A stretch of 32,542 nucleotides of DNA from a bacterium (lineage in GTDB: Bacteria; Patescibacteriota; Minisyncoccia; Moranbacterales; GWC2-37-73), in assembly GCA_003251635.1 (NCBI GenBank), contig QKEW01000016.1:1-32542 (forward strand). The letters run 5' to 3'. Position numbers and translations under genes: made by a program. The first letter of the stretch is position 1. The number at the start of each line of letters is the position of its first letter. Positions 6,077 to 19,135 of the stretch are shown here, one piece after another. The notes under the pieces are model-generated. The model was not told the origin of the DNA. It searched no databases and worked only from the letters and a program-made list of their open reading frames with translations.

Positions 6077-6988
6077 TTAGCTAATTTGCGATTTTTTGAC
6101 AAGCCGGGCCACATTCTCCTCTACCGCTCTTTGAATTTCACCGATTACGTGCTGATTGTCCGGATTTTTGAAAAGATGCTTGAAGCGGCCTTGAGTTTTT
6201 AAAAATTCTTCAATCGGCTTGGGATTTTCGTTGATATAGTTAATCTTATATTTTCCATCTTCAATTTCATAGAGCGGCCAAAAATTAGTCTCCACAGCTA
6301 ACTTGGCCACGTTGACATATTGCGAAGTTGGATATTTCCAAACCTGGGTGCAAGGTTGCAAAACTAAAAGAAATGTCGGCCCTTCAATTTCCAAAGCCTT
6401 TCGAGCTTTTTTTTCTAGGTCTGCCAAATTTCCAACCGAAGCCTGGGCTAAATATTTCAAACCATGTCCATTGATGATTTCCATCAGATCTTTTCTTTGA
6501 CGAACTTTACCAAAAGATTCTTTACCAGCTGGCTCAGTTTCCGTATCCGCACCATAAGGGGTTGCACCCGACCGCTGCCCGCCAGTATTCATATAACCGC
6601 CATTGTCATAACAAACATAAAGAAAATCATGGCCGCGCTCAAGTGCGCCGGAAAGCGATTGTAATCCGATATCCGTGGTTCCACCATCTCCACCAAAAAC
6701 CACCAATTTAGCTTTCTTTTTGATTTTGCCTTTTTTTAAAAGAATTTTTTGAGCCGCTTCTACTCCAGACATTGTAGCTGCTGCATTTTCAAAAGCATTA
6801 TGAATAAAAGGAACCTTCCAAGCTGTGTAGGGATAGATCGTAGTGGTTACTTCAAGACAACCGGTTGCACTGGCCACAATTATTGGATCTTCAGTTGCCC
6901 CCAAAACGGTTCGCACAATGGCCGGAATCCCACATCCTGCGCATGTGCTGTGCCCTGGGGCTAATTTTTCAGTTAGTTTTTTATTCAT
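6077..6988 (-). CDS. porB: 2-oxoacid (probably pyruvate):ferredoxin oxidoreductase beta subunit
   Basis: TPP-binding beta subunit: GHSTCAGCGIPAIVRTVL, ATGCLEVTTTIYPYTAW, GGDGGTTDIG. Confidence 0.92.
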   Translation of the reverse strand: MNKKLTEKLAPGHSTCAGCGIPAIVRTVLGATEDPIIVASATGCLEVTTTIYPYTAWKVPFIHNAFENAAATMSGVEAAQKILLKKGKIKKKAKLVVFGGDGGTTDIGLQSLSGALERGHDFLYVCYDNGGYMNTGGQRSGATPYGADTETEPAGKESFGKVRQRKDLMEIINGHGLKYLAQASVGNLADLEKKARKALEIEGPTFLLVLQPCTQVWKYPTSQYVNVAKLAVETNFWPLYEIEDGKYKINYINENPKPIEEFLKTQGRFKHLFKNPDNQHVIGEIQRAVEENVARLVKKSQIS

Positions 6989-6999
6989 AAAGCAAAAAG

Positions 7000-8190
7000 T
7001 TATTTCAAATATTTAACTCTGTCAGAAATATTTCCCTTTTCCAAATCGGCAAAAACTTTCTCAATCTGTTTTTGAAAAGTATCCCGTCCGCCTAAGCCAT
7101 AAGTGTAACTGGCCACTTCGATTTTACGCCCAGTGGCGTGGTAGACTCCATTAACCACTTCAGTGTAAAGCGGCGGATAGGCTCCTACTGACATCGCCCG
7201 ATCCAAAACAGCAATCCTTTTAGCATGCGCCAATTTTTCTCCAATTTTTTGATAATCAAATGGCCGAAAAAGAGTAACGGCAAGCACGCCGACCTTTTTG
7301 CCTTTTTCTCGAAGCCGATCAACCACCTCTTTAACAGTACCAGCCACTGAACCCATAATCACGATAACTTCTTTGGCATCCTTAGTTTCGTATTCTTCAA
7401 AAAAATCATAGTGTCTTTGAAATTCCCGACCAAAATCCCGACAAATTCGCTGGAATTCATTTTTTGTCTTGAGAAAATCTTTTTGCTGATCGACACGGAA
7501 ATCAAAATAACTGTCTTGCAAAGCCAATGGTCCAAAACTAACTGGGTTTTTCAAATTGAGCAAGAAGTTTTGAGGCTGATAAACGCCGACAAAATCCTCA
7601 ATTTCATCATCCGGCAAAAGTTCAACTCTCTCAGTGGTGTGCGAAGTTTGAAATCCATCCATAACTACCATAACCGGAAAACGAGTTTCTTCCGCCAACT
7701 TTAGACCGATAAAACCCAAATCATAAACTTCTTGAGCATTTTGCGCAAAAATCTGAATCCAGCCACTGTCGCGCACCGCCATTACATCCCCATGTTCTCC
7801 ATGAATATTAATTGGGGCCGAAAGCGCCCGGGCACTTACATACATCAGCGACGGCAGACGGAGTCCGCTGGCGATGTAGAGAATTTCGTGCATCAAAGCC
7901 AGGCCTTGGGAACTGGTGGCTGTGACTGTTCGTGCTCCAGCCGCTTGAGCCCCAACCACCGCACTCATGGCGCTGTGTTCTGACTCAACTTGAATAATTT
8001 CCGCGTTGACTTTACCGTCAGCTTTCATTTTAGCAAAAGTCTCAATAATCGGAGTCTGGGGAGTGATCGGGTAAACTGCCATAACGTCCGGTTGAATTTG
8101 TCGCAAAGCCTCAGCCGCAGCCGCTCCGCCAGTCAGAGCCCTGACTAAATGCTTCTCCTGTTTTGATTTTGAATATAATTTATTTAACAT
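7000..8190 (-). CDS. porA: 2-oxoacid (probably pyruvate):ferredoxin oxidoreductase alpha subunit
   Basis: AVYPITPQTPIIE, VESEHSAMSAVVGAQAAGARTVTATSSQGLALMHE. Confidence 0.93.
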   Translation of the reverse strand: MLNKLYSKSKQEKHLVRALTGGAAAAEALRQIQPDVMAVYPITPQTPIIETFAKMKADGKVNAEIIQVESEHSAMSAVVGAQAAGARTVTATSSQGLALMHEILYIASGLRLPSLMYVSARALSAPINIHGEHGDVMAVRDSGWIQIFAQNAQEVYDLGFIGLKLAEETRFPVMVVMDGFQTSHTTERVELLPDDEIEDFVGVYQPQNFLLNLKNPVSFGPLALQDSYFDFRVDQQKDFLKTKNEFQRICRDFGREFQRHYDFFEEYETKDAKEVIVIMGSVAGTVKEVVDRLREKGKKVGVLAVTLFRPFDYQKIGEKLAHAKRIAVLDRAMSVGAYPPLYTEVVNGVYHATGRKIEVASYTYGLGGRDTFQKQIEKVFADLEKGNISDRVKYLK

Positions 8191-8193
8191 AAT

Positions 8194-8484
8194 TTATTTT
8201 TTCATACTGATAGCCTTAACCGGACAAACCTCAGCACAAACCCCACAGCCTTTGCAAAATTCCAAATCAACGTGAGCTAATTCTTTTTCCCGAAAATTTT
8301 CCTGTGAAACTTCTTTTTCCTCAGCAGCTCGCTTCTTCATCTCAATACAAGCATCCGGACAAAATCTCACGCAAGTTTCGCAACCAATACATTTAGCCGG
8401 ATCAACTTCCGGTTTCAAATAACCCCAGTCGCCCGTCTTTGGAGCTTTTTTCAGATCATTTTTAATTATTGCGCCTTCTTCCAT
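8194..8484 (-). CDS. porD: 2-oxoacid:ferredoxin oxidoreductase delta subunit (2x[4Fe-4S])
   Basis: CIGCETCVRFCPDAC and CKGCGVCAEVCPVKA; located between alpha and gamma subunits. Confidence 0.92.
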   Translation of the reverse strand: MEEGAIIKNDLKKAPKTGDWGYLKPEVDPAKCIGCETCVRFCPDACIEMKKRAAEEKEVSQENFREKELAHVDLEFCKGCGVCAEVCPVKAISMKK

Positions 8485-8505
8485 TTTTTTGTTTTTAAAA
8501 ATAAA

Positions 8506-9072
8506 TCACAAGGCATCATGCCCAGCCCAAATAGCTGCAATATTTTTCTCTGTCAAATCCTGACCAAGTTTTGAAGTAAAGTAATGACGAAAAATTCCAG
8601 TCAAAGTTTCCATGGAAACCACTTCCATGACTTTTATTAGCTTACCCAACAACACCGCATTAGGATTAGCATTACCAGTTAAATCCAAAGCGATAGCTGT
8701 TGCATCGATCAAATGAAAACTGCCATTGAAATTCGGCAACTTCTTTTTCATTTCTTCTTTGGAAAGCTTTGAATTGATGATTAAAAATCCATTTTCATTT
8801 AAATTCTCAATGACCTCACTCCCACCCATAACAGTTTCATCCATCACAATCACAATGTCCGGCTTGATGATCGGCTCTTGAGTTCGAATCTCCTTTTCAG
8901 AAATACGCAAAAACATCTTGGTTGGGGCTCCGCTACGCTCCGGTCCAAAAAACGGAAAAGCTTTCACAAACTTTCCCTCTTCCACGGCCGAGTGCGCCAA
9001 AAGCTCGGAAGCCGTCTTAGCTCCCTGCCCACCTCGTGCCAAAAAAATTATTCCAAAAGATTCTTTTTCCAT
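8506..9072 (-). CDS. porG: 2-oxoacid:ferredoxin oxidoreductase gamma subunit
   Basis: ARGGQGAKTASELLAHSAVEEGKFVKAFPFFGPERSGAP; ATG at 9072 preferred over the TTG at 9078. Confidence 0.92.
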   Translation of the reverse strand: MEKESFGIIFLARGGQGAKTASELLAHSAVEEGKFVKAFPFFGPERSGAPTKMFLRISEKEIRTQEPIIKPDIVIVMDETVMGGSEVIENLNENGFLIINSKLSKEEMKKKLPNFNGSFHLIDATAIALDLTGNANPNAVLLGKLIKVMEVVSMETLTGIFRHYFTSKLGQDLTEKNIAAIWAGHDAL

Positions 9073-9110
9073 ATGCAAAGTATACCATAAAAAAAATTTA
9101 AAAAAAATCC

Positions 9111-10812: not shown

Positions 10813-10840
10813 TGGACAGTTCGCTAATAAATGCTAAAAT
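10813..10840 (+). promoter_or_regulatory. Sigma70-like promoter of a short transcript
   Basis: TGGACA (10813-10818), N16, TAAAAT (10835-10840), 6 nt before an ATG. Confidence 0.65.
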
Positions 10841-10846
10841 CCATTC

Positions 10847-10903
10847 ATGCACAGCTTTGATCAAAAATTCAATCTTCTAAACAATGACGATGATCGCGAT
10901 TGA
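10847..10903 (+). CDS. Candidate leader peptide / small ORF MHSFDQKFNLLNNDDDRD
   Basis: 18-codon ORF directly after a promoter and before a strong terminator; not in the ORF track. Confidence 0.45.
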   Translation: MHSFDQKFNLLNNDDDRD

Positions 10904-10940
10904 TTGTCGTCGGTTTAGCGCTTTGTCAAAAACGAATGCA

Positions 10941-10967
10941 AAAACCGACCAGACTGGTCGGTTTTTT
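10941..10967 (+). terminator. Rho-independent terminator (possible attenuator terminator)
   Basis: AAAACCGACCA-GAC-TGGTCGGTTTTTT. Confidence 0.85.
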
Positions 10968-11029: not shown

Positions 11030-12367
11030 ATGCCAGAAAAAAAAGCTAATGAATTTGAAGTCCTGATTTTGGGCGGCGGAATAACCGGCAGCGCCGTTTT
11101 TCACATCCTATCAAAATATACCAGCCTTAAATCAATCGGACTTTTGGAAAAACAATCCGAATTAGGCCAAATCAATTCCCACGCTAATAACAACAGCCAA
11201 ACTTTGCATTTTGGAGACATCGAATCAAATTATTCTCTGGAAAAAGCCCACAAAACCAAGCAGGCTTCGGAGATGGTCGTGACTTACTTAAAAAAACTGA
11301 CTGATAAAAATCAAACTATTTATTCCAAACAGCCCAAGATGCTGTTGGCGGTCGGTCAGACGGAAGTTGAAATTTTGGAAAAAAGATTTCAAGATTTTTC
11401 CAAACTTTTTCCAGATTTGAGAAAATTGGAATACTCTGAAATTTTTCGTCTGGAACCCAATTTAATCAAAGGGCGTGATCCGCAAGAAAAAATTTTGGCG
11501 CTTCGCAGCGAAAACGGTTTCGTGGTTGATTTTGGAAAACTGGCTCAAAAAATGGCCAGCGATGCTGATCCTCAAAATTCCAAAATTTTCCTCAATCAAG
11601 AGGTTTTAGACATTAAGAAAACATCCAGAGGTTTCCAAGTTATCACTAACAATGAAACATTCAACGCCCAGACCTTAGTCGTCTCAATGTGTTCCCAGAG
11701 TTTGTTTTTTGCCAAAAAATTGGGATATGGACACAACTTTTCCATTTTGCCAATCGGGGGAAATTTTTATGCCTGCCAAAATGAAATTCTGCGGGAAAAA
11801 GTCTATACTATGCAAAGTCCAAAAATGCCATTTGCCGGAGTTCATGGCGATCCGGTTTTAGGACGCCAAGTTGAAACTCGCTTTGGACCAACCGCCACTT
11901 TGACTTTTCTACTGGAGAGAAAAAACTGGAAAACTTTGCGCCAATTTTTCCAATCATCTTTTTCCAACTTTCAATCAGTCAGAGCCTTTTTGAGTGTCAT
12001 TTTTGAAAGAAAACTTTTCTTATTTTTGGCACAAAACCTGGCTTATGAAATTCCATTTCTGGGAAAATATTTCTATTTGAAACTCTGTCGTAAAATCGTG
12101 CCAACTCTCCAAATGAAAGATTTTTCCAAGGGTAAATTCAAGGCCGGAATCCGTCCGCAACTGATTGACAATCCGGAGAGAAAATTGGTTATGGGTGAAG
12201 CTGAAATTGTCGGCGATAACATCATTTTTCACATTTCCCCTTCACCTGGCGCCACCGTTTGTCTGCAAAACGGAGAAAAAACCGCCAAAAAAGTTTTAGG
12301 ATTTTTCGGCGATCAATTTTCTTTCAATCAAGAAAAATTTGAACAAGATTTTCCAATTGCTAAATAA
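11030..12367 (+). CDS. FAD-dependent oxidoreductase, malate:quinone oxidoreductase-like
   Basis: N-terminal FAD motif EVLILGGGITGSAVFHILSK; NSHANNNSQTLHFGDIESNYS region resembles Mqo/L-2-hydroxyglutarate oxidase families. Confidence 0.75.
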   Translation: MPEKKANEFEVLILGGGITGSAVFHILSKYTSLKSIGLLEKQSELGQINSHANNNSQTLHFGDIESNYSLEKAHKTKQASEMVVTYLKKLTDKNQTIYSKQPKMLLAVGQTEVEILEKRFQDFSKLFPDLRKLEYSEIFRLEPNLIKGRDPQEKILALRSENGFVVDFGKLAQKMASDADPQNSKIFLNQEVLDIKKTSRGFQVITNNETFNAQTLVVSMCSQSLFFAKKLGYGHNFSILPIGGNFYACQNEILREKVYTMQSPKMPFAGVHGDPVLGRQVETRFGPTATLTFLLERKNWKTLRQFFQSSFSNFQSVRAFLSVIFERKLFLFLAQNLAYEIPFLGKYFYLKLCRKIVPTLQMKDFSKGKFKAGIRPQLIDNPERKLVMGEAEIVGDNIIFHISPSPGATVCLQNGEKTAKKVLGFFGDQFSFNQEKFEQDFPIAK

Positions 12368-12445: not shown

Positions 12446-12555
12446 TTTTTCTTTTTTAGGGTTTGGTAAGTGACTCAGTGCATTGCACCGAGCTGGAAAA
12501 AGTTAGAAATTAGTTGGGACAAAAAAGCCACCTTTTTTTCTCGGTTTTCTTTTTT

Positions 12556-12933
12556 TCATGCCACCAACTCCTCATGGTTTTTTTTAGAACAACGAGTTAT
12601 TGTTATCAAAAAATTAATCGAGTCTTCACTTCTTGATATCAAAAACACAAACTCCTCAAGCAACTGCTTGAGCTGAACATATTCAGAAGGTACATCTATG
12701 CAAAATTCCTTTTCAGAATATTTCAGGGTTAAAATTATTCTTCCATCATTATAGCGATAAGTAACTGAAGTTATTATATCCTGGCAAGCCTCAATCACCT
12801 CTCTAATAGCCTCAATGCCAGTCTTCGACAAACCTGTTAAATTAGCCCCGACCAATTCCAATACATCTTCAGATTCACCAAACCATTTTTCAGTAAATCT
12901 AACATCGCCTTGACCCAAATTAACTCGTTCCAT
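12556..12933 (-). CDS. Hypothetical protein
   Basis: 125-aa ORF, purine-rich SD-like AGGGGAAGAGG just before the ATG. Confidence 0.75.
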   Translation of the reverse strand: MERVNLGQGDVRFTEKWFGESEDVLELVGANLTGLSKTGIEAIREVIEACQDIITSVTYRYNDGRIILTLKYSEKEFCIDVPSEYVQLKQLLEEFVFLISRSEDSINFLITITRCSKKNHEELVA

Positions 12934-12981: not shown

Positions 12982-13005
12982 AAAAAACCGACCCTAGCAG
13001 GTCGG
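12982..13005 (-). terminator. Rho-independent terminator (candidate attenuator for the 12556-12933 gene)
   Basis: Minus strand CCGACC-TGCTAG-GGTCGG-TTTTTT. Confidence 0.8.
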
Positions 13006-13028
13006 CTTATTTTTTCGAACAACTTGTT

Positions 13029-13118
13029 TTAGTTGTTATTCGCAAAAACAAACTTACCTGCCAGCGCGGCGGTAAACCAAAAGAAGAAAAAATAAAATTT
13101 TTGGTAATGTTTTTGCAT
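13029..13118 (-). CDS. Candidate leader peptide / small hydrophobic peptide MQKHYQKFYFFFFWFTAALAGKFVFANNN
   Basis: 30-codon ORF (with stop) between a TTGACA-N16-TAAAAT promoter and a terminator; not in the ORF track. Confidence 0.55.
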   Translation of the reverse strand: MQKHYQKFYFFFFWFTAALAGKFVFANNN

Positions 13119-13139
13119 AGCAATAATCTCAATGAATTC

Positions 13140-13167
13140 ATTTTAGCGCAAATCCGAATTATGTCAA
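13140..13167 (-). promoter_or_regulatory. Sigma70-like promoter
   Basis: Minus strand TTGACA (13167-13162), N16, TAAAAT (13145-13140). Confidence 0.75.
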
Positions 13168-13178
13168 GCGCTTGTTTT

Positions 13179-14327
13179 CTAGAGCTGAACAGAAACTTTC
13201 AATTCCTCCTTAGCGCGCCAAATGGTCAGTTCAACCAAATCTCCTTTGTGATGCGAACCGATCAAATTGGAAAGCGGATTGTTCAAATCAATTTTTTGAT
13301 CGCCAACTGCCAAAATCACATCGCCAATTTTCAAATGAGCTTTTTGCGCCGGTGATCCATCAATAATTGCCAAAGATGAAAGTCCTGAAGCTGAATAAAT
13401 CAGGGCTCCTTGCTGCTTTTCAAATTTATGAGTCAAAGCATATTCCTTTGTTAGGGTGATGTAATAAACACCCAAAGAAGCTGAATTGTCCAATTCGCCA
13501 TTCAACATTTTATCCAGAGATTCTTTGACTGCATTGGAAGGAATTTGGAAAAATATATCCTGATTGTCCAAGGAAACTTTTCCTATAATTCCAACCAAAG
13601 CTCCCCCATAGCTAATAACCGGTCCGCCTAAATAACTTTGTTGATTATCAAAATCAGTTTCAAAAACACCTTCCATTTTTTCCGAAGAAGCCACTGTCTG
13701 GCCGCTCAAATTAAAAGTACTGTTAATATTGCTCAAGAGACCGGCCGAAAAACGATTTTGATATTCATTAAGAGAATTGCCAATGGAAACCAATTTTTTG
13801 CCCGGTTTAAAATCATTTGAATTGGCAAATTCAATAGCTGGTAAATTGGTAGTCTCTATTTTCAAATAAGCCAGATTAGTAAACTCATCAATTGCCAAAA
13901 GCTTGGCTGGATATTCCTGATTATCATAGAGAATAACGTCATAGGTGGCATTTTTTTCCAAAATCACATCACGATAAGTCACGATAACCCCATCTCCAGT
14001 CACTAAAATTCCACTGCCGCTTCTGCCAGAAAGACTGCTGGTCGAATCAATTGAAATTATATTAACAACTGCCGTAGCCGCCCGTGAAGCGATCTGATTG
14101 ACTGAATCATCCTCCTTGACTGTCACTTGTTCGGTTTTGTTAATTATGGTGATATTCTCCGAAGCTTTTTTAAGAAAAGGAATCTTCTCGAAAAAAGCCT
14201 GATGGCTTAGGCGTGGAAAAAGATAATTATTCATAAAAATCCCGCCAATTCCGCCCAAGATAAAAATAAGCACAGTCCAAGCGATTATTTTTGCTGCTAA
14301 AGCTCCCTTATTTAGGCCTTTTTCCAT
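13179..14327 (-). CDS. HtrA/DegP-like protein with PDZ domain and degenerate catalytic triad (predicted pseudoprotease)
   Basis: GSGILVTGDGVIVTYRDVIL...DEFTNLAYLKI...TDFDNQQSYLGGPV aligned by eye to HtrA motifs; PDZ GSPAQKAHLKIGDVILAVG. Start at internal ATG 14327 preferred; the track start 14432 overlaps the upstream gene. Confidence 0.85.
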   Translation of the reverse strand: MEKGLNKGALAAKIIAWTVLIFILGGIGGIFMNNYLFPRLSHQAFFEKIPFLKKASENITIINKTEQVTVKEDDSVNQIASRAATAVVNIISIDSTSSLSGRSGSGILVTGDGVIVTYRDVILEKNATYDVILYDNQEYPAKLLAIDEFTNLAYLKIETTNLPAIEFANSNDFKPGKKLVSIGNSLNEYQNRFSAGLLSNINSTFNLSGQTVASSEKMEGVFETDFDNQQSYLGGPVISYGGALVGIIGKVSLDNQDIFFQIPSNAVKESLDKMLNGELDNSASLGVYYITLTKEYALTHKFEKQQGALIYSASGLSSLAIIDGSPAQKAHLKIGDVILAVGDQKIDLNNPLSNLIGSHHKGDLVELTIWRAKEELKVSVQL

Positions 14328-14359
14328 ATTTTTTGAAAATCTAAATTTATTGAAATTAA

Positions 14360-15169
14360 TCAAACTACCGGCAACCACTTTGAGCTTGCCAGAACCATGA
14401 TAGCAAGAATGCCAAAAAAGACAATATTCCAAACAAAACCACGCTTTGAAACAATATTAAGGAAATGACTCTGCGCCAAATTCCAAAGCATGAAATAAAA
14501 AATCAACATTACCACTCCATTGGTCAAATATCCAAAAGGCCAAAAATTTAGAATCCAAGCAATCTCCGTCATGCAAAAACCCAAAACCAAACTATAGAGC
14601 CAGACCTTTCCTTTTTCAGCTTCCATCAATCGCAAATACTGATGACTGACTGCAACAGTCGGCACCATAAACAAAAACATGACTATCCATAAGGAAACTG
14701 AAAAGTTCAAATAAAATCCATACAGCAGAGAATAGAAAAGGAAAATTGAAGCCACCGCCACCGCCGCCAAAATGGCGCGAGCTGTCTGATCTTTGACAAA
14801 AACCCGCAAACGATAGAGTCCCAACAAACAGAAGTAATAAGTCGCCCAAGATAAGATGATAAAGAAAAACTTTTTTGAATCAGAATCTATAAAAGCCAAA
14901 AGTCCCAAAGCTGAAAAAGTCAAAGTCAAAGGAATCGGCAACGCACCAAAACGACGACTAATCTTCAAGGAGCTACTCGCCACGATAAAAAGAAAAACTA
15001 AAAGCAAGATGATCACAACTATCAATTTTCCGGCGATCAGAGAAACTAAAAAACCGCTCACTGTTTTGCGAATGACCGCTTCCAATATCAAAACAAAAAT
15101 CAAACTGTGAAAAAAAACCCGCCAATGAAAAAACATAATTTGAAAAGAAAAATTTTGACTAACCAACAA
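14360..15169 (-). CDS. Polytopic membrane protein, hypothetical
   Basis: Multiple hydrophobic segments; start may be the internal Met ([12 protein letters not shown]). Confidence 0.75.
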
Positions 15170-17848: not shown

Positions 17849-19135
17849 TTATTGAATTCGCTCTTCCAGAACAACTCCGACTTCTTTTTCCTTGCCTTTG
17901 CTCCAGACTTTCAAATTAACCCGATCGCCCACATTTTTACTCGAAATCAAACCTTCCAAGGGATTATCCTTGTCTATCTTAATACCATCAAATTCCAAAA
18001 TAATGTCATTTTCCATGATACCCGCCTTATCCGCCGGCGAACCCGGAATCACAGCCAACTCAGAAACTTTTGCTCCCCTTTGAACCAAAACACCATAGGT
18101 ATAGGGTAAATTGTTTTCTTTTTGAAGCTCGGCGCTCATTTCCAAATATCGCACTCCCAGAAAAGGTGTGGAAATTTTTCCCGTTTGCTTAACCTGGGAA
18201 ACCACCTTTTCAATTTGGTCTATCGGCAAGGCAAATCCGATATTTTGAGCATCTACTGCCATCGCCACATTTACCCCAACGACTTTTCCTTCCAAGTTAA
18301 TCAAGGGGCCACCGGAATTTCCTGGATTAATGGCTGCGTCAGTTTGAATGATGTCAGTCAATCGCTCCAATCCCGTGCCGGTTTGATCTCCAGCCATAAC
18401 CGTTCGACCTAAACCGGAAACAATTCCTTTACTGATCGTATTGGAAAATTCACCCAAAGAGTTTCCAATGGCAATCACTGTCTGGCCCAAATGAATATCC
18501 TGCTCGGATCCTAATTCCAAAACCGGAAAATCACTGCCCTCAATCTTAATTATGGCAATGTCCCGGACCGGATCACGGGCTAAAACATGCGCTGAATATT
18601 CTTGTCCATCATTGGTTGTCACCGAATAATCAGCTTGCTCATCTTCAACTACGTGCTTGTTAGTCACAATCATCCCGTCACTTGAAACTAAAAATCCACT
18701 ACCACCGCTAACTTGTTGCTGGGTATATTCTTCCGGTATGTTCCAGTTAAAATTAAACCAATCAAATTGTTGATTCAAAACCTTCACCTGTTTAGTGGCA
18801 CTGATGCTAACCACGGCTGGAGAAGCTTTTTCCACCATTTGAACAATTTTCGAGTCTTCACCCAGCAAATCCACATTTCCACCCAAAGCCTCTCGGCCGG
18901 ATTCATTTTTTCCATCAATAACCGAGTCCGGAAAATTATTCAGAAAAACTCGGCTAGCCATAAAACCAAAAACTGAACCAAAAAAACTAGAAATAATTAT
19001 AACTCCAACAATCAAGCTCGTCTGGCTTTTATTTTTATAAATTTCAGCTTGATCGCTTTCGGGATGATCTAAATTAGCTTGATCAACCACATTTTCTTCA
19101 TAATTGATGCTTTCTGAACTATTTTCATTTTCCAT
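17849..19135 (-). CDS. HtrA/DegP-like trypsin-like serine protease with PDZ domain (intact triad)
   Basis: VTNKHVV, DPVRDIAIIKI, TDAAINPGNSGGPL; N-terminal TM; C-terminal PDZ. Confidence 0.94.
   Translation of the reverse strand: MENENSSESINYEENVVDQANLDHPESDQAEIYKNKSQTSLIVGVIIISSFFGSVFGFMASRVFLNNFPDSVIDGKNESGREALGGNVDLLGEDSKIVQMVEKASPAVVSISATKQVKVLNQQFDWFNFNWNIPEEYTQQQVSGGSGFLVSSDGMIVTNKHVVEDEQADYSVTTNDGQEYSAHVLARDPVRDIAIIKIEGSDFPVLELGSEQDIHLGQTVIAIGNSLGEFSNTISKGIVSGLGRTVMAGDQTGTGLERLTDIIQTDAAINPGNSGGPLINLEGKVVGVNVAMAVDAQNIGFALPIDQIEKVVSQVKQTGKISTPFLGVRYLEMSAELQKENNLPYTYGVLVQRGAKVSELAVIPGSPADKAGIMENDIILEFDGIKIDKDNPLEGLISSKNVGDRVNLKVWSKGKEKEVGVVLEERIQ

Follow-up and report, generated by a model that had tools for sequence, protein, structure and literature searches.

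A probable amino-acid attenuator with a constant RNA core and exchangeable sensor codons in an order of Patescibacteria

What is the function of a 29-codon, aromatic-rich reading frame that is followed by a terminator and then by an orphan gene? The question is raised by a window of 32,542 nucleotides, the whole of contig C11 in a 0.9 Mb genome of 18 contigs, the nearest named relatives of which, in a contig scan with the HtrA-like protein encoded in the window, belong to Candidatus Moranbacteria, Patescibacteria (none is close, the best showing 52% identity). The earlier note, made from the letters alone, had described a promoter, a 29-aa ORF, a terminator and a downstream gene with a strong Shine-Dalgarno-like stretch, and had read them as a classical amino-acid attenuator or, alternatively, as the gene of a small membrane or exported peptide. 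All these parts are present where the note had placed them.

The cassette lies on the minus strand. The sigma-70-type promoter (13140-13167) consists of a -35 element TTGACA at 13167-13162, a 16-nt spacer and a -10 element TAAAAT at 13145-13140, with 11 of the 12 consensus positions matched, and an element of the form TTGACA-N16/17-TAnnnT is found directly 5' of the leader ATG in most of the homologous leaders as well. The leader ORF, MQKHYQKFYFFFFWFTAALAGKFVFANNN, 29 aa (13029-13118; ATG at 13118, stop codon UAA at 13031-13029), has homologues in many genomes; its own Shine-Dalgarno sequence is weak, and its translation is inferred. Among the 28 residues after Met, 11 are aromatic (binomial p 2e-5 compared with the proteins of the window), and the run FYFFFFWF (codons 8-15, 13074-13097) is taken to hold the control codons on the strength of the folding model and of the aromatic enrichment found just 5' of the crossover in 47 leaders. 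The intrinsic terminator CCGACC-TGCTAG-GGTCGG-T6 (12982-13005) is followed by the 125-aa orphan gene (12556-12933) with its strong Shine-Dalgarno-like stretch, AAGGGGAAGAGG. No promoter-like site was detected in the ~48 nt between the U-tract and the start of this gene, which makes read-through the most likely basis of its expression. The stop codon of the 125-aa gene is overlapped (GCATGA) by a basic 18-aa ORF, MKKRKPRKKGGFFVPTNF (12503-12559, minus strand), as if the two were translationally coupled.

Minimum-free-energy folding of the leader, one of the checks that had been proposed, yields -48.8 kcal/mol compared with -30.8 +/- 3.3 kcal/mol for shuffled sequences (z -5.5, with none of the 200 shuffles as good), and the predicted structure of the transcript is a single long hairpin. 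The 9-bp pairing of CUGGCAGGU with ACCUGCUAG that had been noticed before is real but is not the whole structure, being only the outer part of this much longer hairpin, and the AACAAC/GUUGUU hairpin, although present, is the apical part of the same structure rather than a separate one. The attenuator-like competition of alternative structures is retained, but is correctly described as that of one long antiterminator with one terminator. The 5' strand of the antiterminator (13043-13060) is located within the ORF, its outer end overlapping CUGGCAGGU at 13064-13056, and the 3' strand, AAAAAAUAAGCCGACCUG (12998-13015), includes the 5' arm of the terminator.

These pairings are observed to covary. 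DNA searches across the order detect homologues at other loci and in other genomes that match the window from the ATG to the U-tract and translate to MQKQLQKFYTFSFFWFTGRQGLFVFANNE, MQKQIQKFAYSFFWFTGSADRFVFANNG, MNNQLAKNLFYSFYFWFMPRGRFVFAKKYIN and others; the ORF and the alternative pairing are both kept in the homologous cassettes. In 18 aligned leaders, the segment AGGYCGGUUUGUUUUU of the ORF is the complement of AAAAAUAAGCCGACCU, which comprises the 5' arm of the terminator and its A-rich flank, and a diagonal scan of the leaders reveals the antiterminator as one continuous 18-bp helix. The leader alignments were built without reference to structure; across 41 sequences, 91.7% of the antiterminator cells are paired, compared with 40-55% in slid controls, 8 of the 18 pairs are changed on both sides, and the number of cells with changes on both sides is 47 against 19.8 in shuffled data. 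The terminator is paired in 89-95% of the cells with compensatory changes in relatives (89%, with compensatory changes in five of the six pairs, when calculated on the 41 sequences). The terminator bases common to both structures change in all three strands together, for example, from G14-C87-G108 to A14-U87-A108, which is the mark expected of an attenuator. Accordingly, the classical attenuator layout suggested by the earlier note survives the refuting conditions that had been set there and is supported by comparative evidence, with the reservation that the window leader lacks the protector hairpin.

The reading that we prefer, with a probability of somewhat below nine in ten and in the absence of any expression or starvation data, is that the region works as a ribosome-mediated amino-acid attenuator, with charged tRNA-Phe (probably along with tRNA-Tyr and tRNA-Trp) as the signal and read-through into the 125-aa gene as the output. 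Transcription would start at about 13133. With plentiful aromatic aminoacyl-tRNA, the leading ribosome would pass codons 8-15 and cover the ORF segment 13043-13060, which then could not pair, so that the terminator at 12982-13005 would form and transcription would stop. With the aromatic tRNAs uncharged, the ribosome would stall on FYFFFFWF and leave this segment free to capture the 5' arm of the terminator in the 18-bp antiterminator, and the polymerase would read into 12556-12933. The response in vivo, including that to the charging of the cognate tRNA, and the exact tRNA that is sensed are inferred.

Folding of the window transcript with the ribosome-covered region removed conforms to this scheme: with the A-site at codons 1-15, the probability is 0.97 for the antiterminator and 0.00 for the terminator, whereas from codon 17 on, the terminator is formed with the probability of 0.98-1.00. 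In unconstrained folding, without a ribosome, the antiterminator (P 0.97) and not the terminator prevails; an untranslated window leader is predicted by this model to read through, unlike the leaders of trp-type attenuators. Among 82 leaders, 47 switch in the equilibrium model, mostly with a crossover at codons 15-20 and with aromatic residues concentrated just before it. The crossover falls between MNKITSQNSFFFF and NRLW, just after FFFF, in the leader before pheA; between MQKYQICKNDNNDNDDS and LTKR, just after the Asp run, before the malate:quinone-oxidoreductase-like (hereinafter Mqo-like) gene; between MKKNQLNNMSMMHMMT and CENR, just after the Met run, before the SAM_HAT_C gene; and, in the DAHP synthase leader, close to where the aromatic run ends. 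The position of the crossover depends on the assumed ribosome footprint. In 33 of the 82 leaders, including those of LeuA and ProB, the terminator is dominant without a ribosome in the equilibrium model, and in these, the antiterminator would need to gain its advantage from the order of synthesis. Furthermore, once the antiterminator is fully folded, some of the 3' arm of the terminator is paired to ORF bases near the U-tract, which could allow weak termination.

The codon run and the rest of the peptide behave differently in relatives, as the comparison proposed in the earlier note was to reveal: the C-terminal half of the peptide corresponds to the antiterminator strand, and the run upstream of it varies with the controlled gene. 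The cassette in the window is one copy of a family that combines a constant antiterminator/terminator core with an exchangeable codon run. Of the 101 leader peptides that were read automatically, 50 are aromatic-rich and 38 are Ile/Leu/Val-rich in the first 20 residues, and aromatic residues account for 26% of the leader frame, whereas reading the same T-rich DNA in the two other frames gives 13% and 18%. The run is observed to fit the gene behind it where that gene can be recognized. An FFFF run directly precedes prephenate dehydratase (pheA; locus L240), a FYFYFWFFFF-like run precedes DAHP synthase (L179), and, in genome G124, an Ile run is found before citramalate synthase (cimA) and a Leu run before LeuA (leuA). 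PVPP precedes proB, which is followed, as judged by eye, by proC- and proA-like genes (L193), a Ser/Cys run precedes a PHP-domain gene, serA and serC (L194), a Cys/Ser run precedes a glutamine amidotransferase and an OAH/OAS sulfhydrylase (L196), and an Asp/Asn run precedes an Mqo-like gene and an aspartate-aminotransferase-like gene (L108). Weaker cases are a Met run before a SAM_HAT_C protein (a weak Pfam match; L229) and a Lys reading before a dapF-like gene (L230). In a permutation test of leaders against pathways over ten cases, the observed fit was reached in 0 of 200,000 trials; in these cases, the anchor genes were paired with the leaders after both had been seen.

The test on pheA is independent of such pairing. 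When prephenate dehydratase loci were identified by Pfam model search alone and their 1.5-kb flanks were scanned, 10 of the 30 were found to have a cassette no more than 1.5 kb upstream on the same strand, compared with the chance expectation of ~0.02-0.05 estimated from the match density. By eye, the cassette-bearing pheA loci contain small orphan genes as well as TyrA-like and aminotransferase-like genes in the same run. Among the nine aroFGH loci, one has a cassette. The pheA gene of the genome under study (G000:C16, L256), in an operon with a chorismate-mutase-like gene, has no cassette within 1.5 kb. The window itself, as far as can be inferred from sequence, pairs aromatic sensing with a gene of unassigned role; it is from relatives that a connection with aromatic synthesis is inferred.

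Some further loci can be mentioned as observations in their own right. Leu/Ile- or aromatic-type leaders precede members of two recurring unannotated families of ~370 and ~430 aa (L104, L114, L151, L204, L239), which look ATP-grasp-like by eye and gave no Pfam match in the members scanned. Aromatic leaders are also located near 2-oxoacid:ferredoxin oxidoreductase (PorABCD-like) genes in G004 and G129 (L199, L203), and a PorABCD-like cluster lies beside an aminotransferase in the window (6077-9078). The leader MNLNKQTIDKQVWWWRSYQRSACFCL in G037:C14 (L181), with its WWW run, is possibly a Trp-sensing copy; it is followed by a short Cys-rich ORF and next by a large membrane protein.

The exchange of runs bears directly on the alternative raised at the outset, namely, that the 29-aa ORF encodes a genuine small hydrophobic peptide, exported or membrane-bound, with a terminator of its own and unconnected to the 125-aa gene. 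The peptide does resemble a signal peptide in its basic start, hydrophobic core and VFA/N-like cleavage motif, and its C-terminal GRFVFA is conserved among close relatives; however, the stretch encoding GRFVFA doubles as the antiterminator strand, covarying with the terminator arm, the hydrophobic run gives way to Asp/Asn, Pro, Met or Ser/Cys runs where the gene behind is a matching one, and no promoter-like site serves the 125-aa gene separately, which leaves this alternative highly improbable. Codon-specific stalling could also be dispensed with if the cassette were a regulated terminator read by a protein, by a general translation sensor or by antibiotic-induced nascent-peptide arrest. The match of codon runs to pathways in the permutation test and the crossover predicted at the end of the run speak against such a mechanism, which we consider unlikely even though many of the downstream genes are orphans and an untranslated leader or general stalling would also free the antiterminator in the model.

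Two other explanations start from the HtrA-like gene and can hardly be sustained. The hairpin might be no more than the terminator of the HtrA operon, the ORF and the pairing being fortuitous: there is no other terminator between the stop codon of the HtrA-like gene (13179) and 12982, and relatives have a terminator just after HtrA, but neither the fold (z -5.5) nor the conservation in the family and the covariation across 41 sequences would be expected by chance. Likewise, the ORF might be the decayed start of a secreted surface-protein gene, given that, behind the HtrA-like gene, some nine genomes of the family have a TTGACA promoter together with a gene for a surface protein bearing a signal peptide. 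Yet, leader homologues with the same ORF, core and terminator are found at other loci, and no such core was seen before the surface-protein genes; the dispersal of homologues carrying the RNA core rules out a signal-peptide remnant of the post-HtrA gene. The origin of the core as a mobile or integron-like cassette, suggested by copies ~1 kb apart and by palindromic matches, was rejected as well, on the sole ground that the antiterminator/terminator pairing explains the core, and a short match at G000:C2 is a chance palindrome at the start of another gene. The ribosome-mediated attenuator remains the preferred reading.

With regard to the HtrA neighbourhood itself, the trypsin-like motifs of the HtrA-like gene in the window (13179-14432, minus strand) and in L006-L023 look altered (TYRDVI for TNxHVV and SYLGGP for GNSGGP), which suggests a catalytically dead HtrA paralogue kept across the family beside ClpB and DUF5656 genes; a normal-looking HtrA is encoded at 17849-19135. 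The post-HtrA surface proteins with signal peptides (L006, L010, L013, L017-L020, L022) contain Ser/Asn/Gln-rich repeats and, where it could be seen, a C-terminal ATGSG-type anchor.

The window also contains a second, Asp/Asn-type cassette on the plus strand (10813-10967), the evidence for which as an attenuator is weaker. It comprises a promoter-like TGGACA-N16-TAAAAT element recognized by sequence reading (10813-10840), a leader ORF with an Asn/Asp run, MHSFDQKFNLLNNDDDRD (10847-10903), which has the homologue MQKYQICKNDNNDNDDSLTKRSVYFCG before the same gene in G010, and an antiterminator/terminator region (10899-10967) with ACCGACCAGACTGGTCGGTTTTTT, supported by a model match and by the fold, before the Mqo-like gene (11030-12367). 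The model match (R2) scores 19.1 bits, with an E-value of 8.5e-4 when 361 bases are searched and 0.076 for the whole window; the fold has a z of -4.2, and the equilibrium fold favours the terminator. The Asp/Asn leader of G010 before the same Mqo-like gene scores strongly (74.5 bits). In G010, an aromatic leader and a 119-aa orphan lie directly before the pair of the Asp/Asn leader and the Mqo-like gene, so that the aromatic cassette, the Asp/Asn cassette, the Mqo-like gene and the aminotransferase are common to the two genera, in rearranged order.

The alignment of the 125-aa protein with its positional counterpart in G010, a protein of 119 aa, reaches 23%, too weak to claim homology. No relatives were found in the 132 genomes of the order, viral contigs, phages, plasmids, Pfam, PHROGs, NCBIfam or PDB, and homology to the ~105-aa proteins behind leaders in other genomes of the family was not supported (hhalign probability 0.4%). 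The AlphaFold model has a pLDDT of 51, with no confident fold. Without relatives or a confident fold, a role of this protein in aromatic metabolism cannot be checked and is only inferred.

Two covariance-model searches detect the cassette in 72 and 70, respectively, of the 132 genomes of the order, often with two to five copies per genome, many of which are only a few kilobases apart. In a class-wide sample, there are matches in 21 of 388 genomes, 16 of which come from the same order, and in a phylum-wide sample of 384 genomes, the only match is in the source genome. These counts are lower bounds since few candidates were scored per genome, and some weak matches look false (for example, L234 and L235). 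Several loci (L100, L103, L104, L105, L106, L110, L111, L112) contain at least two cassettes within a few kilobases, often differing in codon type; in these clusters, each cassette has a different gene behind it, mostly a small orphan. Very probably, this is a previously unlisted family of switches, placed ahead of amino-acid biosynthesis operons and of many genes of unknown function, in one order of Patescibacteria with tiny genomes.

The enteric pheL/pheA and pheM/pheST attenuators (Rfam Phe_leader, RF01859) likewise combine a short ORF containing control codons with antiterminator/terminator competition and read-through upon stalling, and locus L240 shares with them the placement of a Phe-run leader directly before prephenate dehydratase. 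In contrast to the enteric phe attenuators, the cassette falls outside RF01859 (26.1 bits, E 0.95, against the gathering score of 55) and has no matching family in Rfam, one conserved core serves several amino acids, and the antiterminator strand is within the ORF, upstream of the stop codon; moreover, the window copy lacks the protector hairpin that, in the trp/his/phe-type enteric attenuators, gives termination when the leader is untranslated. T-box leaders follow a similar logic, with one chassis, exchangeable codon specificity and a terminator/antiterminator output, but sensing here is inferred to proceed via a translated ORF and not by direct tRNA binding, and no T-box was matched with Rfam models in the window at gathering scores or in six leader loci at E<=1. 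Outside the proteobacteria, classical attenuators with leader codon runs and a terminator/antiterminator pair are known in Actinobacteria (trp, leuS and candidate ilvB leaders; PMC1262725); the actinobacterial elements described are operon-specific (PMC1262725), whereas the core described here serves many operons and many orphan genes. It is, then, a new, modular variant of a known attenuation mechanism. In the literature searched, we found no paper linking attenuation to these Patescibacteria and no earlier description of classical attenuation as a modular, repeated system built on one RNA core.

Regulation in Patescibacteria is little known, few of these bacteria being culturable. A recyclable chassis with swapped sensor codons might amount to an amino-acid-starvation regulon extending over the few retained biosynthetic operons and dozens of fast-evolving orphans; this broader view is tentative, and we put the odds slightly against it. 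The codon run in each leader serves as a label for the amino acid probably sensed, which in turn gives a predicted condition for orphan genes without any homologues. If the regulon is real, these orphans would be a lineage-specific response to the shortage of aromatic or branched-chain amino acids, perhaps of those supplied by the host.
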